Below, piece after piece: positions 9,397 through 30,084 of a DNA stretch of 64,000 nt. The number at the start of each line of letters is the position of its first letter. Position 1 is the stretch's first letter. Origin of the DNA: Pyropia yezoensis (taxonomy: Eukaryota; Rhodophyta; Bangiophyceae; Bangiales; Bangiaceae); contig CM020620.1 of assembly GCA_009829735.1 (NCBI GenBank), positions 16,636,354 to 16,700,353 of the forward strand. Direction: 5' to 3'. The position numbers and the translations under genes were made by a program. The notes under the pieces were generated by a model that saw only the letters and a list, made by a program, of their open reading frames with translations, ran no database searches and was not told where the DNA came from.

Positions 9397-9404
9397 GAGG
9401 AAGG

Positions 9405-12400
9405 ATGACCGGGGGGCGCTGGGGTAACCCAAGCAAGCCACCCCGGAGTACCGCGGGGAAAGCCCCACGGAGAGCGCGGTTGAGCCGACGCCGCATCAAC
9501 CCCCGGGTACACCTTCCGGCCCCGACGACACGGCGTCAGGGGATTGATGACCAACCTCCGAGGTTGGGAGGAGAGGACGGGAAGCCCCTTCACGTTGAAC
9601 CAGACAAGGGCCCTGTTCAGGATGCCCGAGCTACACCGGATATCGGTGTAGGACATGTGTTGTTTACCTTGGAGAACTTCAAGGTATCAGCCACACTGGG
9701 GGTTGACCCCCAGTCGACACGATCGTACTACCCTGTACTGGACACAGGGGCTGGACCCAACCTTATCCGGAAGGATACCCTCCCGGACAAGTGGCTTCCA
9801 CGAGTCAGAGTGACTCGGGGACCCACCATCAAGGACGCGAATGGTCGACTCATTCGTACGACCGCAGCGATGTCGCTGCAGGTTACCATCGGGGATCTCA
9901 CCACGGAAGTTTACTTCCTGGTATGTGAAACGCTATCGGTGCCCTGCATACTGGGGTGCACCTTCATCAACGTTCACATTGATGCAATCCGGCCAGGCCG
10001 GAGGACCGTCGAGCTTCAAGAAGCCGACGGGACGAAGCGAGGACACACGGCTATCGTCAGGGACCTGACGCTACAAGGAAGCCACGTTAACGTGGCTGAG
10101 GTGTACGCAAGCGTCGAGCCGAAGACACTTCGGTTGGCCAAGCGAACTCGCTTTGAGCCGTTGTCAGAGACAGTCCTCCCGGTTAACTGCGACCTCGCAG
10201 GCATCTGCAGAGTCCAGTCCAACCTACGGACGTACAAGCGCCATGGGTTGACCATGGCCAACGGTCTCATAGACCTCCCAGCAGGAGGGTCGTCCCTCCT
10301 AGTGATGGCGAACTACCGCCGTAAGGCAGTCACCCTCCCGAAGGGAACTATCCTCGGGATTGCCGAACTCTACGAAGGAGATATCCTTACCCCTGATAAG
10401 GAAGGTCAAGTGGAACCACTTGAAGTACTGGCGGTCGCCGAGACCACCGAGCGACAGCAACCCGATGACGGGAAGCCTAACCCATCGGCGGCTCCGGCGG
10501 ACCTGCCGCCAAAGGACCAAGAGGCCTTGAAGGCACTGGCCGAGGCTGACCTCGACCACCTTCCCCCTTCGGTAGCCGAAGGGGTACGACGGATGCTAAG
10601 AAAGCATGACGTTATGTGGACAGGCGGGGCCTTGGGGACCATTGGGGCAACCCAACATCGTATAGACCTGGTACCAGGCGCACGACCCGCCCGCTCACAA
10701 CCGCACCGAGCGGGACCTATGCAACGAGAGATCGTTGATGGAGAAGTGAAGAGGATGAGTGAAGCTAAGGTGATCCGACCTTCGATGTCGGAATGGGGTG
10801 CCCCAGTCGTTATTGTGCCGAAGAAGGATCAAACCCCTCGGTTTTGCATCGATTATCGACGCCTCAACTTGGTTACCAAGAAGGAATCATACCCTTTACC
10901 AAGGATGGATGAATGCATCGACTCCCTGGGGGAGGCTACGGTGTTTACCACCATCGACTGCAATGCCGGATACTGGCAGATCCCGGTGGCGGACGAGGAT
11001 ATCCCCAAGACGGCATTCGTCTGTCACAGTGGAGTGTACGAGTTCCTAAGGATGCCCTTCGGATTGTCCAACGCCCCCGCTACATTCCAGCGGGCTATCG
11101 ACATCATACTGTCTGGGGTGAAGTGGCGTAACTGCCTAGTGCACCTCGATGACGTCATCGTCTTCTCGCGTAACATGGATGACCATGTACAACATGTTGA
11201 CGAGGTACTCACCCTCTTGAGGAACGCCGGGGTAACCCTGCGTCTGAAGAAGTGCGCCTTCTTCCAACAGACGGTCGAATATCTGGGCCACCAGATAACC
11301 CCTGGTAAACTAGGGGTACTCGAAGCCAATACCCGGGCACTCCGGGATGCCCGGTTCCCTAACACCCAGACGCAGCTCAAGAGCTTCCTGGGAATGTGCA
11401 ATGTATACCGACGGTTCGTCAAGGACTTCGCTCGGATAGCTAAACCGTTAACGGTTCTTACGAGCAGTACCTTACCCAAGGTACTCCAACCCCCTTCGCC
11501 TAGCGAAGAGGAGGCATTCGAGTCGCTGAAGCGAGCCCTACTAGCCCCACCCGTCCTTGCGTTACCGCATAGACGGGGTACCTTCGTCATCGATGTCGAT
11601 GCGTGTGATACACAAGTGGGATGCACCCTGTTACAGGGAGAGACGTTGATCGGTACCGATAACGTTATCCCGGACCTACGTCCGGTAGGGTACTTCAGCC
11701 GGACACTCAACCCGGCTGAGCGGAACTATAGTGCCACTGAGCGTGAATGCCTCGGAGTTATATGGGCAGTGCAACTGCTCCGTCCATACCTGGAGGGCTC
11801 CAGGTTCATCGTGAGGTCCGACCACGAACCCCTACGATGGCTCCTCAACCTTGGTGACAAGGATTCCGATAGCCATGGGAGGCTAGCCCGATGGAGGCTG
11901 AAGATGGCCGAGCACGACTACCGCACGGTGTATAAGGCTGGGTCAACCCACCACCTCGGAGACGCGTTGTCTCGACTCGACACCCCGAGCGGGGATACCC
12001 GCCCGGTGGACGAGGACATCCCGGTAGTACCGGTGTGCATGGTGGGTAATGCTACCCAGGGTATGGTTGACCATACCATGGCACACCTTGCGTGCCCATT
12101 GACCCTCGCGGACTTCCGCGAGGCACAGGCCAACGACGATGACTGTAGACGTCATCGTGCAACCTCCTGGCCGGTACGGCCGGCATCTTCTCCGAGAACG
12201 AAGACGGACTCATATACCGGCGGGCACCCGCCGATGGACGACATCAAGTCGTGGTTCCCGTGTCCTTACGGCAAGCCGTCATGGAACGAGAACATGAGAA
12301 CCCTACAGCCGGACACCCGGGGGGTTCACGTATGTTCGCAGCAATGCGAAGGTTCTTCTACTGGCCAGCAATGGCCGTCGACGTGGTCGACCACGTACGG

Positions 12401-13570
12401 GGATGCCACCCCTGTGCACGTAACCGCATGAGTCTACATAGGCAGGCGTCTGCCATGAAGCTATTCCCACCTGATGGGCCCAACGAGCAAGTCGCTATCG
12501 ACATACTCGGGCCACTTCCGATAACGGAAGAAGGGAACAGGTACATCCTGGTCATGTCTGACCGCTTCACTAAGCTGTCAAGAGCGGCAGCCATCCCGAA
12601 TGATACGGCATACACGATCATGAACGCAGTGGTTGACCACTGGATCAGTGCATACGGAGTCATGAAGCAACTCCTCTCCGATAACGGAGCAAACCTTACG
12701 TCGGCATTCTGCACGAAGGTCCTGGGCATGTTCGGTATCGAACCACGTCGGGCATCCGACTACCACCCGCAGTCCAACGGGCAGGTGGAGCGGTTCAACC
12801 GCACCATCGTAAAGATGCTACAGTGCTACGTGGCCGAGCACACGAACACTTGGGACAGGCTTCTGTCCGTACTCACCCTGGCATACAATGCCAGGCCACA
12901 TCGGAGCACAAACATTGCTCCGCTGGAGTGGGTCATGCCACTAGGCGTCGGTAACCTGACGCTGCCACCCGGCAGGTGCACTCGGTATGATACACCGAAG
13001 GGCCGACCCGCCGAACGCATCCACCTAGCTTGGTTGGCCAAGCTATCGTGGATGATTCCTAAGCTCAAGGGTGCCCTTGACAGAACACAACTTCGTTATA
13101 AGAAGAACTTCGACGCCCGACTACGGGTGCGCAACGCAACCCTGGTAACAGGTGACTGGGTCTATATCAGACACCAGAAGTTCCGAGGGAACAAGCTTAT
13201 GCAACCGGTCAAGGGACCGTACCAGATCCTCCACAGAGATGACCACTCTGTTATCTTACACTCCGATACGGAGATCCAACGCATCAGTATGAATGATGTC
13301 ACACCTGCTCCGAAGCCGGAACAGCCTCAGCCGGTACCGGCTGGGTTGCTACATGAAGCTCTTACAACCCACCGGTCGGATGACCCGGTGGGACCGGATG
13401 GGATTCCATACCAAGTAGAGAGCGTGGTCGGACACACCGACCCGGACATACCAGGACCCTGGTACGTCAAGGTTATGTGGGTCGGATACGACTCACCCAC
13501 CTGGGAACAGGCGGCGAATATACCCCGCCAACTACTCATGCCTTACATGAGGCGACGACGCCTACTGTAA
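9405..13570 (+). CDS. pol: Pol polyprotein of element 1 (PR-RT-RNaseH-IN-chromodomain), one frameshift
   Basis: ATG 9405 opens a frame with aspartic protease motif LDTGAGPNLIRK (nt 9737-9772), reverse transcriptase with VHLDDVIVFS (HLDD in place of the usual YLDD, nt about 11139-11168) and RNase H (FVIDVDACDTQVG near nt 11584). After the RNase H linker, at about 12140-12180, the homology moves to another frame and continues to 13570. That part contains the HHCC zinc finger (EREHENPTAGH ... GCHPCARNR) and the DDE triad at D 12499-12501, D 12680-12682 and E 12788-12790, with 35 residues between the last two. It ends in a chromodomain-like segment VESVVGHTDPD...VMWVGYDSPTWEQAANI. The first frame runs on to a stop at 12431. 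The single shift is either a recent inactivating mutation or an assembly error; LTR youth allows both. A chromodomain is thought to steer integration to marked chromatin. Confidence 0.93.
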
Positions 13571-13616: not shown

Positions 13617-13740
13617 CCTACTAAGTAGGGTGTGACATGGTTACGGCAGACTTAGGTTTCTAAGTCAAATCAGACTTAGGTTTCTAAGTCGAACCAAGCT
13701 TAGGTAACTAAGTAGAGCTAAGCTTAGGTAACTAAGTAAA
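13617..13740. repeat. 24-bp tandem palindromic repeats between convergent pol and antisense ORF
   Basis: Four copies at a strict 24-bp period (cores at 13650-13665, 13674-13689, about 13698-13713 and 13722-13737). Each holds a perfect or near-perfect hairpin such as ACTTAG-GTTT-CTAAGT. A fifth palindrome, CCTACTAAGTAGG, lies at 13617-13629. The array sits in the 479-bp gap between the pol stop (13570) and the antisense ORF stop (14050). Being palindromic it reads alike on both strands, so a terminator, 3'-end or insulator role for both transcripts is possible but unproven. Confidence 0.85.
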
Positions 13741-14049
13741 ACCTGAACCTTAATAAGTTAACTTAAAGGTAAAGGCTAACCTCGATAATATCGAAGTAAC
13801 TAGGGGGCTTACACGGGAGGATGACCTCCCAAAGCCAAGACACAAAGTGAGGGAGGATAACCTCCCCAAGCATGAACCAACCGGAAGAAGTTGGACGGGA
13901 GGCAAGGCACCACTGAGCCAGAAGGGGTACTCCCCAGGGCAGCAAACAGAGGCAAGCAATGCCCCCAGCGGGGGATGAGTTTATACTCACTACTACCCGG
14001 CTACCATAAGGGTTGCCGGGGCCCTCTCCCGCACAAACAATAGCACTCC

Positions 14050-16497
14050 TCAGTGGGTAGACCCACTGCCCGAGGGAGGCCACTCACGCGTAAGCGCGTA
14101 GACCTCCGTGCTCCACCGGTCGGCAACGTCACGACGGTTGACCACCCGAGTTACCTCGGTGCATAGCTGGACGAGGGTGCTGCGGCCAGCCTCCACGTCC
14201 TCCAGAGCTTTCTGGAGGCGGTCCAGCACGCCACCGAAGCAACGCGCGGACCCAACCAGCGCAGCACCTGGGGGGATATCCCCCCAGCTAACAGAGAGAT
14301 CCCCACGCATTGCGCGGGTAACAAGGGCGTCAACGCCCTCATACCAGAGACGGGGACCCCCGTCATGTAGGACAGGGGCGGGAGGTGACACTGGCGCAGC
14401 CAGAGGAGCCACAGGAGCCGACACGGCTACCACCGGAGCCGGTGGCACTTGATACGAGGCCCGGTAGGACCCTACCGAAGGGGCTCCACCGTAACCACGG
14501 CGGTACTCCGCCCGACGACGGGACACCTCACGCTCCCCACCCACAGAGCCCCACTCTCGGGGACGACGGCCAACCGCCGCCGGCATCGGGTTACCGAACC
14601 ACGGAGCAAGGACCTGAAGAGGGTCATGGATAACCATGGGAATACCCAGGTCAGCAACAGCCTCGGTGGACGCCCACCCATGGCAACTAGGCTCACCCGG
14701 CTGAGTACGCCGGACACGCAACGAGTGACGAGGCAAGGGGCAAGCCCCAGCATGCGGGTCCCGGTACGGGGGAAGGGCCAACACCCCAGCCCAGTTCACG
14801 GCATCGTGAACAGCCAGCAGGGCTTCGAACTCCCGGGCCAACCCGGTCTTGGCAGCTATCAGATCCACGCCCAACTGCGCGATGTGCCGACGGACACCCG
14901 TCGGAAGATGAAACAGACGACCCTGCCGGCGGACGGACAGCAAGAAGGATGAAGCCTGCCCGAGGGTAACCTCAAGGGTGAAGGTACCCTGCAACGGGTG
15001 GACCGGTCGCGAGGCCAACACACTCCCGAAGTAGCGAAGACAGGAGCCGGTGTCAAACCGGAAAGCAGGGGCGGGTTCCCACCCCTCCTGCCATAGCGGC
15101 GGGCGCACGGGAGTGTATACCGGAGCACGACCGTTGCCGGTCTGCAACGCACACGTTATATCCGTGCGGAACGCATCCGCCATGACACCATGGTTACGTC
15201 GCCAACTCGACGCCGACTTCAACCCCGCCATGGGCGGGTAGGGAGCCGTCAACGACAGATACGGGGGTACCCCCGGGTAGTAGTCAAAGTCGGGATACCG
15301 ACCGGTACGGCTCACCGTCTCCCCAAACGCAACCGGCTCCGCCGCCGCCGCAATCCCCCGAGCACTAGCCGGGTAGTCAATCTCCCGCGGCAACGCGGGG
15401 GCAATCAAGTCGCAGACCCCGAAGTTGGGGTAGAGGTAGACCTCACCCCGTCCCACCCGGGTGCGCCAGAGCTGCGCATGCCGGTCGTCCGGCTGACTCA
15501 GGATCCAATGGTGTTCCACCCGGACCGCGTTCGGCTGGTTGACCAGCCGCACCAACTCCCGCTCCCAGCACGGGTCCACCTTGACGCGCCGGGAGGATTC
15601 TCCACGGGGATGCACCAGGTGGAAGTCCACCCGCATACGCCCATCGGACTCCATCGACTCTTGCACCGTGAGGCCTCGAACCCGAGCCACCAAGTCGGAC
15701 ACCGACATGGCGGGTTGACCCGCCGCCACGGCGACGCCGCCACCCAACGGGGCAACCCGGGCAGGACCAGGAAGAATCGGGGGCGCCGGGGGACGCACCA
15801 CCGGCAGAGGGGCCGACGTCGGAGATGGACGAGGCCGAGGAGGAAGAAGAGGGGCGGGCGCCCGCCCGGAGTAACTCCCGGTGTCAACCGCCATGGGAGA
15901 AGGAGCGTCTTGACCGCTCGACACCCGCGGCACCGCAGGTATGGTACCGGCGCCGGCACCACCCGTCGACGTAGCCCCCGCCTCGGAAGGGGAAGGCACT
16001 TGGACAGCCTCCGGAGCCGGAGCCCCGGCCGTGCGGACACCCGCACCGTCTTGACCCGCCGCACCGGGTGTCGCACCGCCACCACCACCCGCGTCAACGT
16101 CGGGACCGCCTCGAGGAGTCACCGCCCGGACACCCGGACCACCTTGACCAGCCGGAGTCGGCTGCGGGTCGCCACCTCCGCCGCAGGGCGGAACATCTTG
16201 AGGTACCTGCGGTGAGCCGGCACCGGCACCAGGCCCCATCCGGGCAGCCGGCAGAGAGGGGGTAGAAGCCGCCACGCGCGGTTGACCGCCGGGTTGACCT
16301 CCGGCCGACGGCACCGTCGTGCCGCTGCACACGGACGACAGTCCTCCGGCCGACAGACGGACGGACACCGCAGGCCCGTCGTCGTCAGACGAGCTCACCC
16401 CGTAACGCGCGGCGTCGGGACCGACAGGCGCGTCGTCCTCCATCTCCTCCCCGATCAGGAGGTCTTCCTCCTCTTCAAGCAGCTGGGGATAGGACAT
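14050..16497 (-). CDS. Long antisense accessory ORF of element 1 (aORF1, 815 aa)
   Basis: An uninterrupted 815-codon ORF on the strand opposite gag-pol, between pol and the 3' LTR. The first ATG of the frame is at 16497 (MSYPQLLEEEEDLLIGEEME); upstream the frame is open to a GTG at 16779. Residues 1-30 are acidic, about 40-270 are Pro/Gly/Ala-rich and disordered-looking, and 280-660 are mixed composition and look folded. A second linker follows, and the last ~100 residues (DALVTRAMRGDLSVSWG ... LTREW) look helical. There is no signal peptide, no membrane helix and no known enzyme motif. Residues about 490-569 hold FGSV, then VRRQGRLFHLP, then NW, spaced as in the antisense ORF of element 2 (FGSV, VQRRGMLWHLP, EW). 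It needs its own promoter, presumably within 16498-17445. Plus-strand ORFs over it (15190-16215) are shadows. Extra and antisense ORFs are known in some plant Tat-lineage Ty3/gypsy elements; I do not recognise this protein. Confidence 0.8.
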   Translation of the reverse strand: MSYPQLLEEEEDLLIGEEMEDDAPVGPDAARYGVSSSDDDGPAVSVRLSAGGLSSVCSGTTVPSAGGQPGGQPRVAASTPSLPAARMGPGAGAGSPQVPQDVPPCGGGGDPQPTPAGQGGPGVRAVTPRGGPDVDAGGGGGATPGAAGQDGAGVRTAGAPAPEAVQVPSPSEAGATSTGGAGAGTIPAVPRVSSGQDAPSPMAVDTGSYSGRAPAPLLPPRPRPSPTSAPLPVVRPPAPPILPGPARVAPLGGGVAVAAGQPAMSVSDLVARVRGLTVQESMESDGRMRVDFHLVHPRGESSRRVKVDPCWERELVRLVNQPNAVRVEHHWILSQPDDRHAQLWRTRVGRGEVYLYPNFGVCDLIAPALPREIDYPASARGIAAAAEPVAFGETVSRTGRYPDFDYYPGVPPYLSLTAPYPPMAGLKSASSWRRNHGVMADAFRTDITCALQTGNGRAPVYTPVRPPLWQEGWEPAPAFRFDTGSCLRYFGSVLASRPVHPLQGTFTLEVTLGQASSFLLSVRRQGRLFHLPTGVRRHIAQLGVDLIAAKTGLAREFEALLAVHDAVNWAGVLALPPYRDPHAGACPLPRHSLRVRRTQPGEPSCHGWASTEAVADLGIPMVIHDPLQVLAPWFGNPMPAAVGRRPREWGSVGGEREVSRRRAEYRRGYGGAPSVGSYRASYQVPPAPVVAVSAPVAPLAAPVSPPAPVLHDGGPRLWYEGVDALVTRAMRGDLSVSWGDIPPGAALVGSARCFGGVLDRLQKALEDVEAGRSTLVQLCTEVTRVVNRRDVADRWSTEVYALTREWPPSGSGSTH

Positions 16498-17068
16498 GAT
16501 AACGGGTGCGGAGTCCCCCGCGCCCACAAGCCGTCGACGGCTACAACCCGGTACGGTGGGATAACCGGGACGAGCCAGGGAAGCGCGGACACCCGCGCTT
16601 ATGACCACAAACGGCCACGAGAAGCGCCGCAGGCACGCGGGTCGACCCGCGCCCCACGGGGCTACGACCGCGCTCCACCCAGGCACCTGGGCGGGACGGG
16701 GCCACACCCACACACGGGGTAAGTAAGGGGGGTCACCCCCAACCGCCCCCACGCAACGCGGGCAGCCCCCGCCCCCCACTCAATCGTCCACACGAGAGGG
16801 GCCCCCCTACCACCAGGCACCTGGTGGCGGATCCGCTTGCACCACCCCTCGGAAAGGGGGGGCGTGAACAGCAACCCGCATCGGGAAATTAACGGTCCGG
16901 AAAACGGATCGTGTGTGTACCACACAAAGGGGGGCACCCCCCTCGGGCGACCTCGAAAAGGGGTGTCTGTCGCGACGGGGCGCAAAGCCCCACCCGACGG
17001 GTAAACAGTCACGCGACCCACTTACATTCGGTAACCCGAATGCAACTCGACCCGAGGACGGGCCGAAT

Positions 17069-17082
17069 CTAAGGGGGGGATA
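17069..17082 (+). promoter_or_regulatory. Polypurine tract of element 1
   Basis: AAGGGGGGGA immediately followed by TA abuts the 3' LTR start at 17083, the usual primer for plus-strand DNA. Confidence 0.75.
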
Positions 17083-17445
17083 TGTAGCAATATGGTTGTC
17101 CGTATTGTGACCCTAATATTAGGGGGGCTACTTCTAATCCTTAACTTCCAATTTGAGAGTCCGAGCTGGTCACGGTATCTATAAGTTACGTATGACCAGA
17201 GGGACTTGCATCTTGGGGTGGAGGGTAGTTAGTAGTGTCTCCGAGGGTTTATAACGAGGGGGCCGGTGGCGAATCCACCGCCGGCCAAGGTAGAACAACA
17301 AACCCCTCCCATTTGGGCTCCCATCTTGGTCCCGTGGCTTGCGCTCCAAGGACAGCAACCTTGGCCTCCCGGTGACGTTGGTGCCGATCCCCCTTGGTGA
17401 GTGTTCCCTGAGAGTGGACGTGCGACGGATTCCTATTGTGCTACA
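17083..17445 (+). repeat. 3' LTR of element 1
   Basis: 363 bp, TGTAGCA...TGCTACA, nearly identical to 6624-6987. It is followed directly by the target duplication ATGCG. Confidence 0.95.
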
Positions 17446-18160
17446 ATGCGCCGAAGTGGCACCAAGTGTGTCGGTTAACACATAGACAGTGTTTGAGCCG
17501 GGTCACAGCGTGGTGGCACTAGCCGTTCATGGAAACCAATCAGAGGGACAAGGGCTGTGTCTCAGCTAATCGTAGCAACGAGGCTACTCAAAAGCGTACA
17601 ACACCCGGTCCCATAAACAAGTCGTCTACGAGGGATTTGTCTCTCCCATCGAGTAAAATGTGGTGGGATAGCACGCCGACGGACGGGTTAAAGCCTGTCG
17701 GCGGGATCAAAAGTGTGATTCTTGGGAGGCACGAGGCCTCCCGATGCGTATACATGTCGGGGGGGGGGAGCACGGGTTGACGGTTTCCAGCATGGATTCT
17801 ATCTGGCTCAGGGACGTTCAGCCATAATCCAGCACATGCTAGTTTTTACCTATCTTGATGGAATCAAGCCATGCGACAGTGATTGCTTGCTGCACCTATG
17901 CCTTTCGACACGCACTTGGTAGCTCGAGGCTCGAATGGGTTTCCCGCAATTTGACGATCTCTATCTGTCCTCTACTAGTTAAGCCGGAAGATCCATCCTG
18001 GGCTCTGCGGTCGCTTTCGACGACCAAGGCACGGGTTGTGAGAAGTCCCGGCCCAAGACAGACGCCCAGCTATCCAGCTGTTGGGCATAAAATGTTTACC
18101 CAGCTCACGTTCCCTATTAGTGGGTGAACAATCCAACACTCGGCGAATTCTGCTGCGCAC

Positions 18161-18195
<35 letters not shown>

Positions 18196-18794
18196 AACAT
18201 CGCTATGAACGCTTGGCTGCCACATGCCAGTCCCTTTGTACCAGGTGACTCTGGTAGGGATTTCCCCACTAGCAGTTCTTGTTTGCACTTATTGTTACAT
18301 ATTGCCAGCGAAGGGCCGCCTTCCTCCAGGGTTCGCAAACACGCCCAGTTTCGGTGGGCGTGAGACGTGACCTCCTTAAACACGTGCTGAGACACGCAAA
18401 ACACTGAAAACACGCTGAACACGCCTTCACTGAATTTATTTGTAGCCCCCCCTTTCCCATAAAAGGACCTGTTGAAGTGCAATATTTGGGGCTTTGCCGA
18501 TTGTCCGGGGGCCCACGGCGTCTTGAAGCTGGACTGGCCAGCAGGCTTCAGACGCGATTGTCATTCGTGCGTACAATACAGTACTGACAACTGACAAAAG
18601 TCACTTGTTACGGGCCTTCCGATGGCGTCGTTCCATCGCGCGCGAGCATTTTTCCAACCGGAGCGTTCCTGTTCATGTGAAACACGGAAAACACGCCCGG
18701 CCATCTTGGGCGTGAGGAGTGACAAGCCCTAAAGAACGTGTCAGACACGGCTTAGGCGGGACACTCGACACGCCCAGGGCGTGTTGGCCAACCA

Positions 18795-19009
18795 TACGTG
18801 TCGCACAACCTCAGCAACAATATGACCGTGCGCCGGTGTTGAAGTACATATATTCACATTCCCATCTCCCCGGCCGCATCTCGCCGGAGCTCACGATTCC
18901 CAGCAAGAAGAGCGATATGTGTGACTGACTATGTATTTCCCCTGTTGCTGTTGTCGTTCAGTTTATGAACGGCAATCTGCGGGACGTTACACAAATACGT
19001 TTCTCATTG
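18795..19009 (+). repeat. Copy 1 of a ~216-bp dispersed direct repeat
   Basis: Begins TACGTGTCGCACAACC and ends TTTCTCATTG. It matches 19421-19636 over its whole length with scattered differences. Shared blocks include ACGCCGGAGCTCACGATTCC-like text and TGTATTTCCCCTGTTGCTGT. Confidence 0.85.
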
Positions 19010-19420
19010 CAAACCACAAATCCCTAGCCTGGCAACCGTACAGTGTTCCTCTGAGAATTATTCCAAGTTTTCCCTTCGTCCAATGCTTGAGCAGTTCTTG
19101 ATGAAATTCTTGGGATAGTCCTCAGAACGTTTCGGAGGTTCGTTAAAGAACGTTTAACGTTTTTGTTTCTCGAGCCGGCCATAGAACAGGTCAAAGAACT
19201 GTATTTCAGAACCTACATCTAATGGGCGCGAAACGCACTTCGGCAGACTTGGTATTGAGGGATCCTTCATCTGTATTCCTCACAGTCGTCAGGTCTGCTC
19301 AGAACACTAGGACTATCTCGCCTATTGCTCGCTATCGTCGGTTTATGCATAGCTTGTTCACAGTTCCTGATAGTAGTACTCCAGAGCGCGGTGCGTTTCA
19401 GTCCTGAAGCTTCCTACAGA

Positions 19421-19636
19421 TACGTGTCGCACGACCCTGGCATGAATATGCCCCGTGTGCCGGTATTGAAAAACATATAGTCATATGCCCGTTTCCCACG
19501 CCGCATCACGCCGGAGCTCACGATTCCCGGCAAGAAGAGCTAAATGTGTGACTGACCATGTATTTCCCCTGTTGCTGTTGTCGTTCAGTTTATGAAAGGC
19601 AATCTGCGGGACGTTGCACAAGTAAGTTTCTCATTG
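19421..19636 (+). repeat. Copy 2 of the ~216-bp direct repeat
   Basis: Same orientation as 18795-19009, with 411 bases between the copies. The copies do not begin TG and end CA, so they do not look like ordinary LTRs. Confidence 0.85.
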
Positions 19637-20703
19637 TAAGAGCACGCCCTTCAACAGCAAACCCCGAAGGAATATGTACACGTGGTAGAAAATTGCCCCC
19701 CAAACCACCCCAATATGACACAAATGTGGTCGATTCGACAATAAACGGGTTGGTCGGGTGCCTGTTGCAACACTGGCACCATAAGACTTTTGCAAGCGTT
19801 TTGAATTCATTTACCTCACCGACGATAAGTCCTGGTCGATTGAGATTCAGGAATGGGGTTTGGTCTTGGTCCCGCCCCATTTGTTTCAGAAATGGATGAG
19901 GACCAAGACCATTTCCCATTCTCGAGGCCCTCTGGCAGGCGATCTGGAGAGTCCGTAGCGTGCAGCGTGGCAAATTTCTGAACACCATTCTAGACGTAGA
20001 CGATCGCGTCCGCGTCGTCCGACGATCGCCTCCCGACTGGCGCTTGATGCGCCCCGCCGTCGGCTTTCTGAAGTGAAATCGCCCTCGTGTGCCGAAGCGC
20101 ATGCCGGCTATCCCATCGGGACGTGGTTGTTGCCGGCGGCAATCCACGCCGCGGTCTCATGATCAATGACAACACGCGTGTACTTTGTTGCCATCACCCC
20201 TGGGACCGTTAGTTTCCGGCAGCAAAAGCGACCTCGCCGCCCCCCTCCAGAACTGCGTGGAATGGGCACCTGGCGTGGAGGGGCGGCGGCGCCACAGTGA
20301 TTGCCGCCCGCTGGTTGTGTGAATTAATGCAGGCGGGAAAGCCTCGGAACGGCCGCCGAGCCCCCTCCCCCCGCCAACTGTGTTTTCTTGCTGGTGGCGG
20401 ATGAGCGTGCGGTGGCCCGACCGCATTGCGCCCCTGGGGCGACTGGATGAGGGGGGAGGACAGGGGGCACAGCGTTTGCCCCTGATTGGCTGACGCGAGG
20501 ATAGGAATGTGCTGGCGTGCTCTGGCCACCTGACCGCCGTCCGCAAGCATGTTCTGGGGAGTCGGGGGGGGGGCCGCGGCGTGTCTGTTGCGACACTGGC
20601 CGTGGGGCCGATTCCTGGGGGGGTGGCAAACCACGCCAACCGCCGTCGCGACCGCCGCCACGCTCATCGTCGTCGTCGTCACGCCCACCATCGTCGTCAC
20701 CCG

Positions 20704-21171
20704 TGTGGCAAAAACCACTCGCACACACAGTACCCAAGTTGGGGCGGTGTGCGAGGGCTGCCTCCCGTGTCGGGGGAACCGGAAGAAGTGCAAGTCGCAC
20801 ACACTCTATCCCTGTTGTGGGGCAATCCCCCCACGGACAAACAAGAAGATGGTGTGTGGTCCAACAGTTTCTTGGTCGGGACGGGGACGCAGGGCCAAGC
20901 CCCGCTGTCCCTCCCCTTATCCCCCCAGGGTCCACTCAGAATCTCGCCACTCAGAATCTCCCACCCCAGCACCTGCCCACCGGGCCACACGAAAATTCAA
21001 GACGATAAATGCAGAAAACCCTCAAATCCAAGTTGGATTTACTACTAAGCTAACTATCCCGAACTTAGGGAATATGGACCCAAATGCAGGGGGAGGAACG
21101 GATCAGGTTAGTGGCCTGCCGCCCCTTGCATGGCACGTGTTGCCCCCTACCTGGGGGTCAATACTGCCACA
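20704..21171 (-). repeat. 3' LTR of element 2
   Basis: 468 bp with 7-bp inverted ends TGTGGCA/TGCCACA. Identical by eye to 29617-30084. Confidence 0.95.
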
Positions 21172-21190
21172 CTCCCCTCTCCTCAGTTCC
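21172..21190 (-). promoter_or_regulatory. Polypurine tract of element 2
   Basis: On the minus strand GAGGAGAGGGGAG directly precedes the 3' LTR. The same tract precedes the LTR of element 3 at 57719-57731. Confidence 0.75.
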
Positions 21191-21548
21191 GACCGACCCG
21201 GTCGGCCCTGTGAGGGGGTGCGTAAACGCACGTCTCGGCGTTGGGGGGGGGACGCGACTTGCTGTCCCCCCTTGAGTACGTAACGCGGATGTGGAGGCGG
21301 TCACGTTGGCCGCCCCTCTCCTCAAGCTTGCCCACTTGGCAGCTTGCTCTCCTCGGTTCACACCTCACCACCACCACCACTTCTCCTCCACCTTACACGG
21401 GGCCACCCCACGCTGGGGAGGCCACCCGTTTACCCACGATCCGAGTCCCCCTCAACTCGAGGCGGGTCTCGTGCCGCGATAGCCAGGACGTCTCTCCCCA
21501 ACTTGGGGAGAGCCATGGCGACTCCGGGAGTGGAGACGGACTCTCTCG

Positions 21549-23459
21549 ATGAGCGTATGGAGGACACCTCCTACGGTGCAGCGCCTGCCGGGACTTCCGG
21601 CGGGGGCTCCGCGATCGCCCACCTCGGGTGGGACTCCCGCGTCACCCGGCTTTGGGTTGACGGCAGGATCTCCCCCGGAGGCGGGACAAGTTGTCCCGCG
21701 TGAGGCCTTGGGGCGGTGGTTTTACCCCGCTTGGCCTCTGTATGAGGAGGGGTTGACTGTTCTTCGCTGTGGCCGACTCGGCGCAGCGATGGGTCGGGTA
21801 TGGGACCGCCTACGGGAGAAGTATCCCCGTAGGGTCGGGTTCCCTGCCGGCTTCAGGACGGACCAGTTTGCCTTCCTGGACGACGAGGAGGTCGAGGACG
21901 TGCAGCGGGCCAAGGCCATGGTGGACCGCGGGGGAACTATCCCGGGTCCCGGCGACTTGCCGACCTTCACTTGGGACGCGGTGGCAACTCGCCCCCCGTA
22001 CCTTCACGAGGCCGATCCGCACACTCATCACTTTGATGTGCGGATGGAGAAGGACTTCCGGCGAGGTCCCTACTTGGTGACCTCGGCTCAACTTGAGTTT
22101 CCTCAGCAGTCTGCTGCCAGTAAGGAGCAATACTACCCGAAGAAGCCCGAGTGGTGGCCTCAAGTTGAGGTCCCCTACGGGTTCCCGGCATTGTTGCCAC
22201 GGTTGCTTGACCACTTCGGCTCCGTCATGTTGACGGCTGGCCCTGATCATCTGGTGTGGGCCATGTTGGCCACCCAGTGGCTCCTCGAGGTCATGTCGAC
22301 CTGGGTGTCATGTGTTCAGCGGCGGGGGATGCTCTGGCATCTCCCCCTCCGGCTCATCCAGGGTTTGGAACAGCTCACCCCTCAGCTAGTTGCTGAGGGG
22401 TGCTCGTCAGGACAACTCACTCTACTTGAGGAGATGCTCCGCCTCCACAAGTTTATCGAGTGGGAGAGCATTGAGCACAAGTTGCGCCGCCCCACTCGAG
22501 GGCCCAAGGACGATGGCGCACTTCGCCAGTTCGTGTGGGTCGCTCGTGAACTTCACGACGGCCGTGTGGTCCTACGAGAGGGGTTGGGCATCGGGGACTA
22601 CCCGTATGCCCCGGGGGTGGATCGTCACACTGCGCCACCTCCGGACAAGCCCATAGTTATGGCTGTGCCCTCATATGATGACCATATGACTCAACCTACT
22701 GCGGGGGCCCCAAGTCGGGGTCGCAGTTACACCCGGGTACCGCCACCTCGGCGTGCCCCTCCGCTTCCTCCTGTTCCTTTCCAGCCTCACGGGAACATCC
22801 CGATCAGCGTGGCCGTGGAGTCATCCACACCGGTGTCTCCCAACTTGGGGGCCACCCTCCTGACGGTATACCCCAAGTTGGTGTTACCGCCCACGCCTCT
22901 AACCTCAGAGATGATGATCACCACGTTGGTGCGCACCATTTCCCGGTTGGCCGCGTCGACCGCAACCCTCCAAAGTTCCGAGACTCCTCAACTTGAGGAG
23001 CGCGTTCGTACTGCAGTGGCGACCGCGAGTTGCGAGTCGGTGGCGGAGTTTATGACGGCCGAGTTGGCTCGCATTGGGGCTATTATGCCCCAGCCAACCC
23101 CACTTGGGCGTGGCAAGCGTCGTGCGAGCCGGGCATACTCGCCTCCTCGCCGTCGTCGCCGTCACTCGCGGCGCTCTCCCTCCGTGTCGGAAGACGAGTT
23201 GTCTTACTCCGTCTCGGAGTCCTCTACCCCATCGGAGACGGAGTCTGTCCAGCGTCTGCGTCGCAAACTTGCGCGCAAGACCAGGCAGAAGAGTAGCCAC
23301 GGTCGGCGCCACTTGCGCGACCGTGAGGGGCGCGACGGTTCCGACTTGGAGCCGCCGCCCCTTCCAACGAGTGGAGACCGTTATCGGCGTGGGTCTCGCC
23401 GCTCGCCTCCACGTGAGGGCGAGGGCCGTGGAGTGGGAGAGTCTAGCATGCGTGCCTAG
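21549..23459 (+). CDS. Long antisense accessory ORF of element 2 (aORF2, 636 aa)
   Basis: Uninterrupted ORF from ATG 21549 to TAG, opposite in sense to gag-pol and convergent with it; its stop lies 111 bp from the pol stop. In the decayed copy of element 3 the protein starts further upstream (MATPGVETDSLDERMEDTSY). The matching ATG here is at 21515 in another frame, with one extra base around 21617-21635, so the N-terminus in this copy is uncertain. The central part (about residues 60-380) looks folded, e.g. GRWFYPAWPLYEEGLTVLR. FGSV is at residue 223, VQRRGMLWHLP ends near 266 and EW is at 304-305, matching the order and spacing in aORF1. The C-terminal ~130 residues are Arg/Ser-rich (SPPRRRRRHSRRSPSVSEDE), resembling an RS-like nucleic-acid-binding tail. 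No signal peptide, membrane helix or known enzyme motif. Role unknown. Confidence 0.8.
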   Translation: MSVWRTPPTVQRLPGLPAGAPRSPTSGGTPASPGFGLTAGSPPEAGQVVPREALGRWFYPAWPLYEEGLTVLRCGRLGAAMGRVWDRLREKYPRRVGFPAGFRTDQFAFLDDEEVEDVQRAKAMVDRGGTIPGPGDLPTFTWDAVATRPPYLHEADPHTHHFDVRMEKDFRRGPYLVTSAQLEFPQQSAASKEQYYPKKPEWWPQVEVPYGFPALLPRLLDHFGSVMLTAGPDHLVWAMLATQWLLEVMSTWVSCVQRRGMLWHLPLRLIQGLEQLTPQLVAEGCSSGQLTLLEEMLRLHKFIEWESIEHKLRRPTRGPKDDGALRQFVWVARELHDGRVVLREGLGIGDYPYAPGVDRHTAPPPDKPIVMAVPSYDDHMTQPTAGAPSRGRSYTRVPPPRRAPPLPPVPFQPHGNIPISVAVESSTPVSPNLGATLLTVYPKLVLPPTPLTSEMMITTLVRTISRLAASTATLQSSETPQLEERVRTAVATASCESVAEFMTAELARIGAIMPQPTPLGRGKRRASRAYSPPRRRRRHSRRSPSVSEDELSYSVSESSTPSETESVQRLRRKLARKTRQKSSHGRRHLRDREGRDGSDLEPPPLPTSGDRYRRGSRRSPPREGEGRGVGESSMRA

Positions 23460-23570
23460 TTGGCAGCTGCCTTTGTTGTGAGAGTGTGAGGGTTAGGGCT
23501 GTAGTTTAAAGCCACTCTGCGTACCACTTCGACTTGAAGCACTCTCTTGGCACTGTTGCTCGGCCTTCCC

Positions 23571-26500
23571 TCACGTTGAGGGAGGGCTGTTAGGGTCTAT
23601 CTCGTTCCGGGCACAGTACGCCCGGACCTTCTCAGCAGGAAGGTCCTCCACATACTCCCACGTATCATCCTTGGCTTTGTAGCCAAACCAACGCACCCTC
23701 AACATGAGGCGGTCAGTATCCTCATCCCAGCCGTGGTCGATGAACTTGTCGAACACGTACTCCTGCGGGCCCTGTTTGGCTGCAGGCAGCGAGGGCAGGC
23801 GCCACGTTTTCAAAGCACGCGCCCAAGCTGGGTCGCCTGCAGGCGGTGGTGCAACTTTGACCACGTCCTGCCCGTTCACTGTGCGGACCCCATCGTCACT
23901 TTCGATGGTGAAGCGCCGCCCATCAGTACGAAGGACCTGGTACGGCCCCTTCGTCTGGAACACCAACTTACCCCCAGTTGGGGTGTGTGAGTGGACCAAT
24001 ACCCAGTCACCCTGCTCGGGGACATGCTTGGCGTTGCGCACCTTTTTGTCAAAGGTACGCTTGTAGCGCTTTTGTGCTTTGTCCATCTCAGCCCTGACTT
24101 TAGGGATGAGGTTTTCAAGCCTAGCAGCGAACTCCGCCTTACTCTCAGTAGGAGTGGGCGTACTGCCACCATCCTCCCTAGTTGGGAGCGGCCGCCGCAC
24201 GGCAATAGACCGCACGCGACGGGGGGTCACAAAAGCGAGGGGTACTTCCCCGGTAGATGAGTGAACCTGCGAATTGTAGGCAGTGGTCAGAATTGAAATG
24301 TATTGGTCCCACGTCTTCACGTGCTCACTCACATAATGGCGCAGCTGCCTAACAATAGTTTTGTTGAAGCGCTCCACCTGCCCATTAGTTTGTGGGTGGT
24401 AGGGGGTGGCATAGTTTGCCTTAACCCCCAACATATCCAGCACTCCTTGAAACAGTACAGACGCAAATTGCGGTCCATTGTCCGATAGTGTACTATCCGG
24501 AATGCCATACGCGGCAACCCAGTGATCTAGGAAGGCTGACACGACCGACATGGCCGTGATCTCTGCCAGTGGGATCGCTCGCGTAAGTTTCGTGAAGCGG
24601 TCACAGATGACCAGGAGGTACTGGTTGCCCTCCTCGGTCACTGGCAGTGGCCCAAGGATGTCCATCGCCAACGCGGCGAAGGGCTCCTTGGCCGGGAACA
24701 ATAGCATAGCCGTAGTAGGCCGCCGTTCCATCAGACGGTTCTGTGCACAACTTGTGCAGGCAGCCACCCAACTGTAGATGTCCACCACCATGGACGGCCA
24801 GTAGTACCTGGTCCTCAGGGTCTGGTACAGTTTACTAGACCCCAGGTGTCCACCCGTGGGAGCGTTATGCTCCCTCTCAAGGATACTGTCCTTGAGGGAT
24901 GCGGGGACGACAAGTTGTTCGGTCCCCTGGAATACCCCCCTCCTCATGAGGAGGCCATCGTCTCCCAGGAAGAACCGCGTCTCCGCCACTGTATCCAGGG
25001 TATCCCTCTGCGACTTGCAGAAGGGATCCTCGGCCTGGGCCTTCACTACTTCGTCCAGGGACAGGGGCAAGTACTTCTTGTTCCCTGGCGCCTCGGGATT
25101 CAACGCCTGACCCGAGCGCGTGACTACCCCCACGATGGGGATGTCCTCATCGACTGGGGTGGTGTCCAGTCCCTCGGTAGGTACCCGAGAGAGGCCGTCG
25201 GCAAGGGCATGTTGCCTGCCAGGTCGGTACTCAATATCAAAGTTGAAGGGTGCAAGTCGCACCCTCCACCGGTTGAGACGAGTGTTCGTACAGTCCGTCT
25301 TGAAGATGAACTGCAACGCGCGGTGGTCACAGCGGATGAGGAACTTCTCACCCTCTAGGTAGTGACGAAGTGACGTCACCGCCCATACCACTGCGAGTCC
25401 TTCCAACTCGGTGACTCCGTAGTTCTTCTCGGCCGAGTTTAGCCCCTTGCTGAAGTATCCCACCGGCAAGTACTCCTTGTCCGGCTGTTGCTGAAGCAAC
25501 ACACAACCAAGTTGGTCGTAGCTAGCGTCCACATCCAGGATGTAGTGGCCTCCCAACCTGGGAATAGCCAGGATAGGGGGCTTCAGCAGAAGGTCCCGAA
25601 GAGTCTCAAAGGATTCCTGCTCCACCCGACTTGGGGGAGGCAGGTTCTTCGGTAGCGTTGAGCTCACTAACTCATTCAACGGATTCGCCACTTTGGCGAA
25701 GCCCTTAGTGAAACGTCGGTACACGTTACACATCCCGAGGAAGCTCCTCATCTGGGTCTGGGTCCGGGGGTACTGAGCCTTGCGGATGGCCCTCAAGTTT
25801 TTCTCGTTGACACTGAGACGCCCCGGACGGACAACATGTCCCAAGTACTCCACCTCTTGAGTGAAGAGGTGGCACTTACTCGCCTTCAGTGATACTCCGG
25901 CGTCAGCAAGTAGCTTGAACACCTGGCCAAGATGGCCAATGTGTTCCTCCGGACTTCGGGAGAACACAATGATATCGTCTAGGTACACGAGACAGATCTG
26001 CCACCGTACTCCGGCCAGAATCATGTCCATAGCGCGCTGGAAAGTTGCCGGCGCGTTACACAGGCCAAACGGTAGACGCTTGCACTGGTAGGTACCACAG
26101 TGACAGGTAAAGGTAGTTTTATGCCTGTCCTCCGGGGCAATGGGAATTTGCCAGTACCCCGCGTTACAGTCCAGGGTAGAGAACACGTTTGCCTCCCCCA
26201 GAGAGTCCAGACAGTCATCCATCCGAGGTAGGGGATAACTATCCTTCACCGTGCTCTCGTTGAGCTTACGGTAGTCGATACAGAACCGGGGGGTCCCATC
26301 AACTTTGGGGACGATCACCACCGGACTCGCCCACTCGGCGTTGCTGGCCTCGATCACATCGAGGGCCTCCATGCGAGCAACTTGCTCCTTAACGAGGGCC
26401 CTTGAACGGGGTCCTCCCCTATACGGTTGTTGGCGTATAGGGGGCGCACCGGGTTTCAACTCGATCCGGTGTTGGGTAGCTCTCATGAGTCCCAATTGAC

Positions 26501-27554
26501 CATCCCACAACTTGTGATATTGGTCCAAGAGGCGTTCAACTTGAACCCTCAACCTGGGTGGAACACCCTCCATGTTTACATGGGGCCGAGGAGAGGCGGC
26601 CGACTTGGCTTGATGCTTCTCCTTTCCGGACTTCGGGTCGCTACTTGCGCCCGCGTTGAGGGTGACCGCTACTACCGGTCCCTCGTGTTGGTCGATATAG
26701 CCGAACTTGGCCCCCGACTTGAAGAACTTGGGCGACGAGCTCAGGTTCATCACCTGGATCCTCCACGGGACTCCGGCTTTGGAGTCCATCGTGCCAAGGG
26801 CAACATGCACTTGGTGCTTGCGAGCAAGACGGGGGTTAGGGTGCACCAACCCGTTCCCCGCATAATCAGTTACAACATCCACGTGCGCCACCGAGTTGGG
26901 GGGCAACATGACTTTACGGGCTAAACGCAGAGTAGCAGTAAACCCTTCCCTCACAGAACAAACAGGCTTCGACTGTGAAACTGTCACAGGAGCCACAGAC
27001 TTTCCCTTACCAAGGATGGGGATAGTCTCCCCATTCATCAACTTGACCCAGTACTCAGGGCCACAAATCAAAGGCACTTGTGTTACGACATAAGGGGTAC
27101 CCAGAAGCAGGGGTACCGATATATTCTCAACTACACCATAGGTCACGTCGACCTCATGGGTCCCCAACCGAGTTGGTAGGGTCACGGCACCAACGATGGG
27201 AAGTACCCCACCATTGATATCGATCAGATGGTCAGCTTTAGACTTCCAGCGTTGGAGCCTCATCCCCTTTGGTAATAGCGACTTGCGTATCAAGGAGGCT
27301 CCTGACCCGGTATCAAGTACGATACGGGCACAACAGGCGCGGCCGGGGGCAAGTTGCACCCGTCCAGCCACCTGGAAGTTCTCACCCGTCAGCACCGCGA
27401 TGACCCGACGTGGGTTTACGTTCTTGGGAAGTCCCACCCGAGGTGGGCGGACTCCCTTAGGTCGCCGCAGTATCCGACACGGTTGGTTCGTCCTCTTGGC
27501 CCACTTGGCCGAGGCTGCCGTTGTGAGCTTCGGACGACCAGCTCCAACGGTCAT
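23571..27554 (-). CDS. pol: Pol polyprotein of element 2, intact (PR-RT-RNaseH-IN-chromodomain)
   Basis: 1327 aa from ATG 27554. Protease motif VLDTGSGASLIRK has its Asp at residue 81. The reverse transcriptase shows RFCIDYRKLN and the catalytic LVYLDDIIVFS. RNase H has LDVDASYDQLG and the downstream RCDHRALQ. The integrase zinc finger is EREHNAPTGGH ... CTSCAQNR, and the catalytic triad lies in AMDILGPLP, SDNGPQF and GQVERFN with 35 residues between the last two. A chromodomain-like tail follows (VRWFGYKAKDDTWEYVEDLP). All key residues are present and no stop or shift interrupts the frame. Its ATG overlaps the gag stop (ATGA), so translation by termination-reinitiation is likely rather than ribosomal frameshifting. 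Confidence 0.96.
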   Translation of the reverse strand: MTVGAGRPKLTTAASAKWAKRTNQPCRILRRPKGVRPPRVGLPKNVNPRRVIAVLTGENFQVAGRVQLAPGRACCARIVLDTGSGASLIRKSLLPKGMRLQRWKSKADHLIDINGGVLPIVGAVTLPTRLGTHEVDVTYGVVENISVPLLLGTPYVVTQVPLICGPEYWVKLMNGETIPILGKGKSVAPVTVSQSKPVCSVREGFTATLRLARKVMLPPNSVAHVDVVTDYAGNGLVHPNPRLARKHQVHVALGTMDSKAGVPWRIQVMNLSSSPKFFKSGAKFGYIDQHEGPVVAVTLNAGASSDPKSGKEKHQAKSAASPRPHVNMEGVPPRLRVQVERLLDQYHKLWDGQLGLMRATQHRIELKPGAPPIRQQPYRGGPRSRALVKEQVARMEALDVIEASNAEWASPVVIVPKVDGTPRFCIDYRKLNESTVKDSYPLPRMDDCLDSLGEANVFSTLDCNAGYWQIPIAPEDRHKTTFTCHCGTYQCKRLPFGLCNAPATFQRAMDMILAGVRWQICLVYLDDIIVFSRSPEEHIGHLGQVFKLLADAGVSLKASKCHLFTQEVEYLGHVVRPGRLSVNEKNLRAIRKAQYPRTQTQMRSFLGMCNVYRRFTKGFAKVANPLNELVSSTLPKNLPPPSRVEQESFETLRDLLLKPPILAIPRLGGHYILDVDASYDQLGCVLLQQQPDKEYLPVGYFSKGLNSAEKNYGVTELEGLAVVWAVTSLRHYLEGEKFLIRCDHRALQFIFKTDCTNTRLNRWRVRLAPFNFDIEYRPGRQHALADGLSRVPTEGLDTTPVDEDIPIVGVVTRSGQALNPEAPGNKKYLPLSLDEVVKAQAEDPFCKSQRDTLDTVAETRFFLGDDGLLMRRGVFQGTEQLVVPASLKDSILEREHNAPTGGHLGSSKLYQTLRTRYYWPSMVVDIYSWVAACTSCAQNRLMERRPTTAMLLFPAKEPFAALAMDILGPLPVTEEGNQYLLVICDRFTKLTRAIPLAEITAMSVVSAFLDHWVAAYGIPDSTLSDNGPQFASVLFQGVLDMLGVKANYATPYHPQTNGQVERFNKTIVRQLRHYVSEHVKTWDQYISILTTAYNSQVHSSTGEVPLAFVTPRRVRSIAVRRPLPTREDGGSTPTPTESKAEFAARLENLIPKVRAEMDKAQKRYKRTFDKKVRNAKHVPEQGDWVLVHSHTPTGGKLVFQTKGPYQVLRTDGRRFTIESDDGVRTVNGQDVVKVAPPPAGDPAWARALKTWRLPSLPAAKQGPQEYVFDKFIDHGWDEDTDRLMLRVRWFGYKAKDDTWEYVEDLPAEKVRAYCARNEIDPNSPPST

Positions 27555-29497: not shown

Positions 29498-29597
29498 GTT
29501 GGCTAACGATCCGTATGACACGGTCCAAGTCCACCGTTCCTCTGAGACAGAGGGCCCCCTACACCCGGGTGCACCCGGAGGTAAAGTTTACCTCTCT

Positions 29598-29614
29598 CCC
29601 CTGCTGCTCCACCA
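29598..29614 (-). promoter_or_regulatory. Primer binding site of element 2
   Basis: Minus-strand TGGTGGAGCAGCAGGGG, two bases inside the 5' LTR. The 17 bases are the same as in element 1. Confidence 0.8.
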
Positions 29615-29616
29615 AA

Positions 29617-30084
29617 TGTGGCAAAAACCACTCGCACACACAGTACCCAAGTTGGGGCGGTGTGCGAGGGCTGCCTCCCGTGTCGGGGGAACCGGAAGAA
29701 GTGCAAGTCGCACACACTCTATCCCTGTTGTGGGGCAATCCCCCCACGGACAAACAAGAAGATGGTGTGTGGTCCAACAGTTTCTTGGTCGGGACGGGGA
29801 CGCAGGGCCAAGCCCCGCTGTCCCTCCCCTTATCCCCCCAGGGTCCACTCAGAATCTCGCCACTCAGAATCTCCCACCCCAGCACCTGCCCACCGGGCCA
29901 CACGAAAATTCAAGACGATAAATGCAGAAAACCCTCAAATCCAAGTTGGATTTACTACTAAGCTAACTATCCCGAACTTAGGGAATATGGACCCAAATGC
30001 AGGGGGAGGAACGGATCAGGTTAGTGGCCTGCCGCCCCTTGCATGGCACGTGTTGCCCCCTACCTGGGGGTCAATACTGCCACA
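29617..30084 (-). repeat. 5' LTR of element 2
   Basis: 468 bp, identical by eye to 20704-21171. Followed by the target duplication ACCCG. Confidence 0.95.

Follow-up and report, generated by a model that had tools for sequence, protein, structure and literature searches.

Related antisense open reading frames in chromodomain-bearing Ty3/Gypsy retrotransposons of Pyropia yezoensis: a putative accessory gene family

Antisense open reading frames (ORFs) located between pol and the 3' long terminal repeat (LTR) are known from plant Tat-type elements (PMC7264820, PMC11963269), and an antisense gene is also known in Boty of Botrytis and Sclerotinia (PMC7264820, PMC8365987). As far as these sources go, the role of the antisense accessory genes of LTR elements is stated as unknown (PMC7264820, PMC11963269). 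The antisense gene of maize Grande is described as having its own promoter and a nuclear product, and non-coding antisense transcripts are on record for other elements (PMC7264820). The genome of the edible red alga Pyropia yezoensis (nori) consists of 48% repeats, among which LTR retrotransposons predominate (PMC7423979). Here, we analysed a stretch of 64,000 nucleotides of this genome (contig CM020620.1, positions 16,636,354 to 16,700,353 of the forward strand; hereafter the window), in which two Ty3/Gypsy elements with chromodomains, E1 (6624-17445, plus strand) and E2 (20704-30084, minus strand), each carry a long antisense ORF (aORF1 and aORF2, respectively) between pol and the 3' LTR.

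In the plant Tat/Retand lineage (Retand, Grande gene23, RIRE2), the antisense ORF lies between pol and the 3' LTR, as in E1 and E2; in two further families of P. yezoensis, E3 and E4, it directly follows pol. However, 97% of Retand clusters are reported to encode TRP28 (PF04195; PMC7264820), whereas none of the 17 members of our alignment A4 matched this domain at E values up to 10, nor did E3 and E4 at E values up to 0.1. The Retand lineage is described as non-chromovirus (PMC7264820), from which the chromodomain of the E1-E4 elements may set them apart. A preliminary description of this DNA had set the antisense ORFs apart from the plant kind, which the absence of TRP28 bears out, and its term chromovirus is justified in the sense of a C-terminal chromodomain. 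The gene brtn of Boty-like Gypsy elements (Botrytis cinerea, also Sclerotinia; Zhao et al. 2011, via PMC8365987) is likewise an extra antisense gene in a non-plant Gypsy element, but its host is a fungus rather than a red alga. In bdelloid rotifers, extra ORFs of LTR elements are common to different element types, and several have recognisable domains (GDSL, DEDDy; PMC5408684). An env-like third ORF is in sense orientation and has a transmembrane segment, whereas the aORFs are antisense and have no transmembrane-like stretch. VANDALs are DNA transposons, and HBZ, the antisense product of the human T-cell leukaemia virus (HTLV), is a bZIP protein. VANC, encoded by VANDAL of Arabidopsis, is a transposon protein that counteracts silencing (PMC10398659), which makes it a functional analogy only. 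The antisense gene of HTLV has an antisense promoter in the 3' LTR (PMC7264820), whereas the antisense proteins of E1-E4 have no Pfam match above cut-off. No report of LTR-element antisense ORFs in red algae was found among the literature matches listed. Since the antisense architecture is known in plants and in Boty, the novelty lies in the protein family and its red-algal host group, both of which appear to be new.

The antisense ORFs and the blocks that align between them are located as follows:
14050..16497, minus strand: aORF1, antisense ORF of E1, 815 aa
14782..15417, minus strand: core block of aORF1 (residues 361-572), aligning with aORF2
21549..23459, plus strand: aORF2, antisense ORF of E2, 636 aa, with a basic C-terminal tail
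21798..22472, plus strand: core block of aORF2 (residues 84-308), aligning with aORF1

aORF1 is read from an ATG at position 16497 within a stop-to-stop frame of 909 aa. In both elements, pol and the antisense ORF are convergent, with 479 bp (E1) and 111 bp (E2) between their ends; the same relative place and orientation had already been recognised in the preliminary description. The spaced motifs on which it had based a likeness between the two proteins were all recovered: FGSV at residue 490 of aORF1 and 223 of aORF2, HLP at residues 530 and 264, and NW or EW, preceded by LxxH, with the tryptophan at residues 569 and 305. The block around HLP (VRRQGRLFHLP in aORF1, VQRRGMLWHLP in aORF2) is identical at 7 of 11 positions. 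By composition-adjusted BLASTP, the two proteins match with 51.6 bits (E = 9e-11; 24% identity over 230 residues). Their local alignment scores 129, whereas shuffled sequences reached no more than 69 (core, 1000 shuffles) and 78 (whole protein, 300 shuffles). A profile of nine E1-type proteins matches a profile of two E2-type proteins with E = 7e-7 over 187 columns, and the proposal thereby passed the profile check that the preliminary description had asked for. As judged by these comparisons, aORF1 and aORF2 are homologous, as had been supposed. The codon-position pattern between families (positions 1 and 2 above expectation, position 3 near it) was dropped as evidence of homology because an alignment chosen on amino acids favours such a pattern by itself.

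The RT (reverse transcriptase) domain was used to scan the genome. From the 150 of 3927 candidates that were scored, one copy of each of four further families was picked by differing frame length. In two of them, E3 (locus L060) and E4 (L061), pol is immediately followed by a long antisense ORF (608 and 995 aa, respectively, from stop to stop), and the antisense orientation and the place after pol are common to the four families E1-E4. The antisense proteins of E3 and E4 are identical at 104 of 359 positions. In shuffle tests, the similarity of the E2 protein to that of E3 (p = 1e-8) and to that of E4 (p = 3e-5) was significant, and E2 matched E3/E4 in a profile comparison with E = 3.5e-6. Residues 193-314 of aORF2 match residues 245-361 of E3, while residues 487-572 of aORF1 match residues 220-308 of aORF2. 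The antisense family common to different chromodomain families, proposed from the two window elements, is therefore extended to E3 and E4 via aORF2, and also to another species (see below). Identity in the RT-RNase H region is 52-67% within E1-E4 and 34-37% to the two other families (L062, L063). The latter showed no similarity to the window aORFs within the 5 kb that were read starting at RT; the antisense frames seen in these two families measure 406 and 275 aa from stop to stop. E3 and E4 are the closest pair both by RT (67%) and by antisense protein. The primer-binding site is the same in E1, E2 and E4; this site (TGGTGGAGCAGCAGGGGA) was not found in the E3 stretch read. A single acquisition in the common ancestor of E1-E4 is the simplest reading.

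We then considered the copies of both ORFs in the genome. The copy lists hold the best matches by protein score and are uninformative on broken copies. Among them, the best 69 of 4627 candidate places were scored for aORF2, all open and 98-100% identical; 54 of the 55 places scored for aORF1 have no stop, and with another query the E1-type C-terminal part is open in all 126 places scored. A second search used the non-coding leader next to the 3' LTR as query; 8 of the 40 places listed were read for each element. Five of the eight E1 copies found in this way are open over the full 815 aa. All eight E2 copies align from end to end and are free of indels apart from a single N-terminal frame difference, and two stop-making substitutions occur among 14 E2 sequences. 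The window copy of aORF2 differs in its N-terminal reading frame from all 13 other aligned copies, and in 14 of 14 other E2 loci, read on the correct strand, the ORF starts at another ATG and is 647 aa long. The first ~36 residues of the window aORF2 are therefore peculiar to that copy, and the ORF of 636 aa initially reported, correct in its coordinates, has an atypical N-terminus.

Selection on the antisense frame, expressed as the ratio of non-synonymous to synonymous divergence (dN/dS), was best tested in E3, since its relatives span 99% down to 42% identity. In the subfamily comparisons, of E3 as of E1, the loci L047-L054 and L064-L069 came from protein-ranked lists and were chosen for divergence, mostly with open frames. 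Against open copies of two subfamilies, the E3 frame has a dN/dS of 0.15-0.16 (dS 0.52-0.53) and 0.21 (dS 0.94-0.96), and the value between these two subfamilies is 0.18 (dS 1.05). For residues 10-400, dN/dS falls to 0.11-0.16, with dS overall from 0.5 to 1.15; the E3 integrase gives 0.05-0.07. Pairs within a subfamily show 0.58-0.86, as expected from changes that occurred after insertion. Across E3 subfamilies, the antisense frame is under purifying selection.

For E1, a subfamily B of four copies (87-89% identical) is open in all four. Six indels common to its copies separate it from subfamily A, each a multiple of three in length and located within the N-terminal 170 residues; L051 has one more, of 15 bp. 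Fixed differences between A and B amount to 51 synonymous, 81 non-synonymous and no stop changes (expected 38.1, 90.5 and 3.4; p = 0.0099). Fifteen pairs were compared over the whole of aORF1: dN/dS lies at 0.39-0.55 in 14 of them and at 1.72 in the other, which has 22 changes. By region, dN/dS is 0.16-0.47 for the core (ten pairs) and 0.46-1.01 for the C-terminal part; for the N-terminal part it is 0.51-0.85 except in one of the ten pairs, which has 12 changes and a value of 2.10. A pooled sample of nine E1 sequences gave no signal in any of the six frames (gene frame: 114 synonymous, 289 non-synonymous and 11 stop changes, expected 117.2, 285.9 and 10.9). This sample is dominated by two decayed copies (L034, L035), and dropping them left 26, 46 and 0 changes (p = 0.16). 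For E2, 14 sequences display 26 synonymous, 22 non-synonymous and 2 stop changes, against 14.6, 33.8 and 1.6 expected (p = 6e-4). These 14 are a mixture and not a random sample: the window copy, seven leader-found loci picked as absent from the protein-ranked list, one leader-found locus that is on this list and five more taken from it. A first E2 test (30 copies, 38 synonymous and 4 non-synonymous changes) was withdrawn because ranking by protein score had preselected copies with similar proteins.

Divergence is uneven along the elements. Between E1 subfamilies (window, L048, L051-L053), synonymous divergence of aORF1 is 0.41-0.45 in the N-terminal part and 0.03-0.12 in the C-terminal part, and in E3 (L060, L065 and L067 with L070 and L071) integrase and antisense ORF rank the subfamilies differently by dS. 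This mosaic divergence suggests recombination between subfamilies in E1 and E3.

The charge layout of the antisense proteins is as follows. In aORF1, residues 1-280 are acidic, with an abundance of P, G, S, A and T; then come the core (net charge +9), a linker bearing a basic patch and a C-terminal segment. In aORF2, the core has a net charge of -2 and the tail of +18 over 121 residues. The most basic 60-residue window reaches net +6 in E1, +13 in E2, +7 in E3 and +23 in E4. The aORF2 tail, previously called RS-like, is indeed strongly basic, but it is not enriched in RS/SR dipeptides, and no significant RS enrichment was found in any of the seven proteins tested. No transmembrane-like stretch was detected (maximum KD19 of 1.37 and 1.23). 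Besides Pfam, in which no family exceeded the cut-off for the antisense proteins (DUF6214 and DUF641 were rejected as weak matches far below it), NCBIfam gave no family for the three proteins searched, a profile search of the PDB returned three matches with nothing meaningful (all E at least 1.2), and none of 39 pattern matches in IMG/VR was confirmed. The proteins thus lack a known enzyme, envelope or membrane motif, as first noted.

Both window elements have the features of Ty3/Gypsy LTR elements, namely an LTR pair, a 5-bp target duplication (ATGCG in E1, ACCCG in E2), a primer-binding site and a polypurine tract. In E1 and E2, gag is followed by protease, RT, RNase H and integrase; the order from RT to integrase was also seen in E3 and E4. 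The gag match of E1 and the protease matches of both elements are below the Pfam cut-off. The GPY motif is present in pol of both. The E2 chromodomain matches Clr4/HP1 chromodomains by phmmer (E = 1e-4) and scores 19.4 bits in Pfam, below cut-off. The end of the E1 integrase aligns with it at W-x-GY and TWE, and alone reaches 13.1 bits, far below cut-off. The E3 chromodomain passes the cut-off (37.3 vs. 25.1 bits), whereas that of E4 falls below it (19.3). The two elements had been described as clearly distinct in Gag and Pol; distinct they are, but they are also plainly related (43% and 39% identity in two parts of pol, 25% over 220 aa in Gag). The remaining features of both elements are:
6624..6987, plus strand: E1 5' LTR, TG...CA, with the target duplication ATGCG immediately 5'
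6989..7006, plus strand: E1 primer-binding site TGGTGGAGCAGCAGGGGA, same as that of E2 and present in E4 (L061)
7207..9396, plus strand: E1 gag frame, 25% identity to E2 gag across 220 aa
9405..12431, plus strand: E1 pol, first frame (protease, RT, RNase H)
12251..13570, plus strand: E1 pol, second frame (integrase, GPY motif, chromodomain-like C-terminus)
13647..13743, no strand: tandem repeats of 24 bp, short and palindromic, located where the pol stop and the aORF1 stop face each other across a gap
17083..17445, plus strand: E1 3' LTR, with ATGCG immediately 3'
20704..21171, minus strand: E2 3' LTR, 468 bp, 100% identical to the E2 5' LTR, with ACCCG in front
23571..27554, minus strand: E2 pol (RT, RNase H, integrase, chromodomain)
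27551..29521, minus strand: E2 gag with CCHC zinc knuckle
29597..29614, minus strand: E2 primer-binding site TGGTGGAGCAGCAGGGGA
29617..30084, minus strand: E2 5' LTR, 468 bp, with ACCCG directly after

In the window copy of E1, pol is divided between two overlapping frames (overlap 12251-12431). At the gag-pol junction of E1 (9385-9420), the pol ATG lies 8 bases past the gag stop, while in E2 (27551-27554) it overlaps the gag stop (ATGA); stop-start reinitiation may be at work. Both Gags end in AGNE. The units of the repeats at 13647-13743 are palindromic (CTTAG...CTAAG). Tandem repeats are also present in E3 (L060, 5309-5687), where they separate the start of its antisense ORF from the next gag-like match, and these resemble the repeat arrays described in plant Retand elements (PMC11963269). 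The repeats at 13647-13743 and those upstream of the E3 gene are candidate target sites. Tandem repeats beside the antisense gene were noted in E1 and E3 and none were found in E4, so that they were rejected as a general partner of this gene. Elsewhere in the window, two direct repeats of 187 bp (18826-19012 and 19453-19639; 89% identical) lie between E1 and E2, an ORF with a thioredoxin domain (E = 3e-14) occupies 2742-3938 on the plus strand, and positions 53057-53556 are a run of 500 N.

Relatives were also found outside this genome and outside Ty3 elements. In the protein database, aORF2 has one relative (95%, source tag lgn) and aORF1 has three (94%, 75% and, in Pyropia vietnamensis, MMPV_009242 with 47%). 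A profile search retrieved 16 proteins, of which 12 belong to P. vietnamensis. Five of these start with MGEPPS..QEDDLLMEEEELEGDE, like the acidic start of aORF1 (MSYPQLLEEEEDLLIGEEMEDD), which supports the ATG chosen for aORF1 in the preliminary description. In one P. vietnamensis protein (P0016, MMPV_000838), the antisense-ORF N-terminus is joined to Gag-looking sequence, which probably reflects a faulty gene model spanning a nested insertion. A relative of the E4 antisense protein, E5 (E = 4e-13 over 290 aa), occurs at five places in the genome, among them L072 (224-3445, plus strand), L073 and L074. In the stretches read at two of these places no Ty3 pol turned up, and a third, L073, holds a piece of E2 gag from 2470 onward. 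The C-terminus of E5 gives the impression of being long, Ala-rich and coiled-coil. A helicase-like gene (AAA_11/AAA_12, L076) near L074 was read as a neighbouring host gene. With E5 as query, E6 was found, again at five places in the genome. In both loci read, the E6 ORF is convergent with an ORF encoding a Ulp1/C48 peptidase domain (PF02902; E = 2.9e-10 in L078, and 0.0061, below cut-off, in L079):
L078: E6 ORF at 4690-8001, minus strand; Ulp1 ORF at 3-3647, plus strand
L079: E6 ORF at 3734-6694, minus strand; Ulp1 ORF at 2-2833, plus strand

The partner ORF of E6 also contains a stretch that gives the impression of GIY-YIG. E5 and E6 may be host genes or parts of other mobile elements.

We propose, with confidence and doubt in about equal measure, that the aORFs are one conserved antisense accessory gene, likely present in the common ancestor of a chromodomain-bearing Ty3/Gypsy group, whose product would have a trans-acting nuclear role. 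This gene would have been acquired once, in the ancestor of E1-E4-type elements, and would be transcribed toward pol from its own promoter in or beside the 3' LTR. The protein, laid out as a conserved core followed by a basic segment, with an acidic N-terminus in E1, would work in the nucleus, in trans for the element. We infer a nuclear, nucleic-acid-related regulator because of the charge layout and the lack of a membrane segment and of a known domain; analogous cases are the nuclear antisense product of Grande and, for anti-silencing, VANC. Most likely, the protein would counter silencing or control element transcription by binding the element's own nucleic acid, with the handling of element RNA or cDNA as a close alternative.

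Several observations weigh against this proposal. The direct match between E1 and E3 (p = 6e-4) joins residues 487-598 of aORF1 to residues 102-215 of E3, and at the collinear place (E3 235-400) aORF1 has no direct match (p = 0.94). The similarity between E1 and E4 is not significant (p = 0.18), and the profile of E1 against E3/E4 gave E = 0.09 with a probability of 0.6%. The connection of E1 to E3/E4 therefore runs only by way of E2. Among the non-collinear matches, one may have arisen by chance, or the proteins may be rearranged or contain repeated, much diverged domains. An internal duplication in E3 as the cause is unsupported, the two E3 stretches (102-215 and 245-361; L060, P0018) being unlike each other (p = 0.69). 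A tree of six RT sequences, without outgroup, placed L062/L063 beside E1 with a support of 0.56; with no outgroup and such a support, an E1-E4 clade is not proven. As for selection, aORF1 as a whole is less constrained than the integrase (0.08-0.12), and the recent E1 family A shows no signal (26 synonymous and 46 non-synonymous changes, expected 21.7 and 48.5; p = 0.16), so that the check by dN/dS suggested earlier succeeded between subfamilies, with values well below 1, but not within this recent family. Three of the eight leader-found E1 copies are broken (L031, L034, L035), and the aORF2 tail has 9 RS/SR dipeptides where 10.9 are expected from its composition.

Alternatively, the gene may be a mobile accessory that unrelated transposable elements exchange, and E1-E4 would have captured it repeatedly instead of acquiring it once. 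This appears rather unlikely to us. The non-collinear matches of E1 and E2 to E3 would fit a history more tangled than a single acquisition. The relatives of the E4 protein outside Ty3 elements, E5 and E6, speak for it, as does the finding that extra ORFs of bdelloid rotifers are common to LTR and Penelope-like elements (PMC5408684). However, the Ty3 families with the antisense ORF are nearer to each other by RT than to the two other families, E3 and E4 are closest by RT and by antisense protein alike, and place and orientation are the same, as is the primer-binding site in three of the four families. In a related and similarly tentative view, the proteins would form a superfamily of transposon regulators, antisense to their neighbours where these were identified (E1-E4, E6), found in LTR elements and at least one other kind of red-algal mobile element, the convergent two-gene unit with Ulp1, and kept or exchanged as an anti-silencing or regulatory module.

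That the antisense transcript matters and not the protein, through double-stranded RNA or interference with gag-pol, the ORF being a by-product, is very improbable and already disfavoured. Convergence in both window elements and the non-coding antisense transcripts known elsewhere (PMC7264820) are compatible with it, but the dN/dS of 0.15-0.21 in E3 at dS up to 1.05, the indels in multiples of three and the protein similarity between families are not what it predicts. Only slightly less improbable is the reading of the protein as structural, as env-like or as a duplicate of Gag: the ORF is placed like env, and its core gives the impression of being alpha-helical, whereas the antisense orientation, the lack of a transmembrane-like segment and of a Pfam match above cut-off stand against this, and a duplicated Gag was rejected because no profile match to E1 or E2 Gag was found (E = 0.23 and 0.49). 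Finally, the window has a GC content of 61.7%, spurious antisense frames as long as 406 and 275 aa do occur in P. yezoensis elements, and the opposite-strand in-register frame pairing of aORF1 and aORF2 also scores 105 (because the same conserved bases are read there), all remaining frame pairings scoring at most 65. Similarity due merely to composition in a GC-rich open antisense frame is nevertheless next to inconceivable given the shuffle tests, the composition-adjusted BLASTP and the selection in the antisense frame, and it is effectively refuted for E1-E2, E2-E3 and E3-E4.

These results suggest that several mobile-element families of nori carry, opposite to their enzyme genes, a related and conserved protein, i.e. 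an undescribed helper gene. A protein family without TRP28, at the same position in a red alga and with measured purifying selection, offers an independent system for asking what antisense genes do, for which nori supplies many recent, near-identical copies. Should the relatives next to the Ulp1 gene turn out to be part of another mobile element, this protein would be a tool of transposons in general and not the peculiarity of a single clade.

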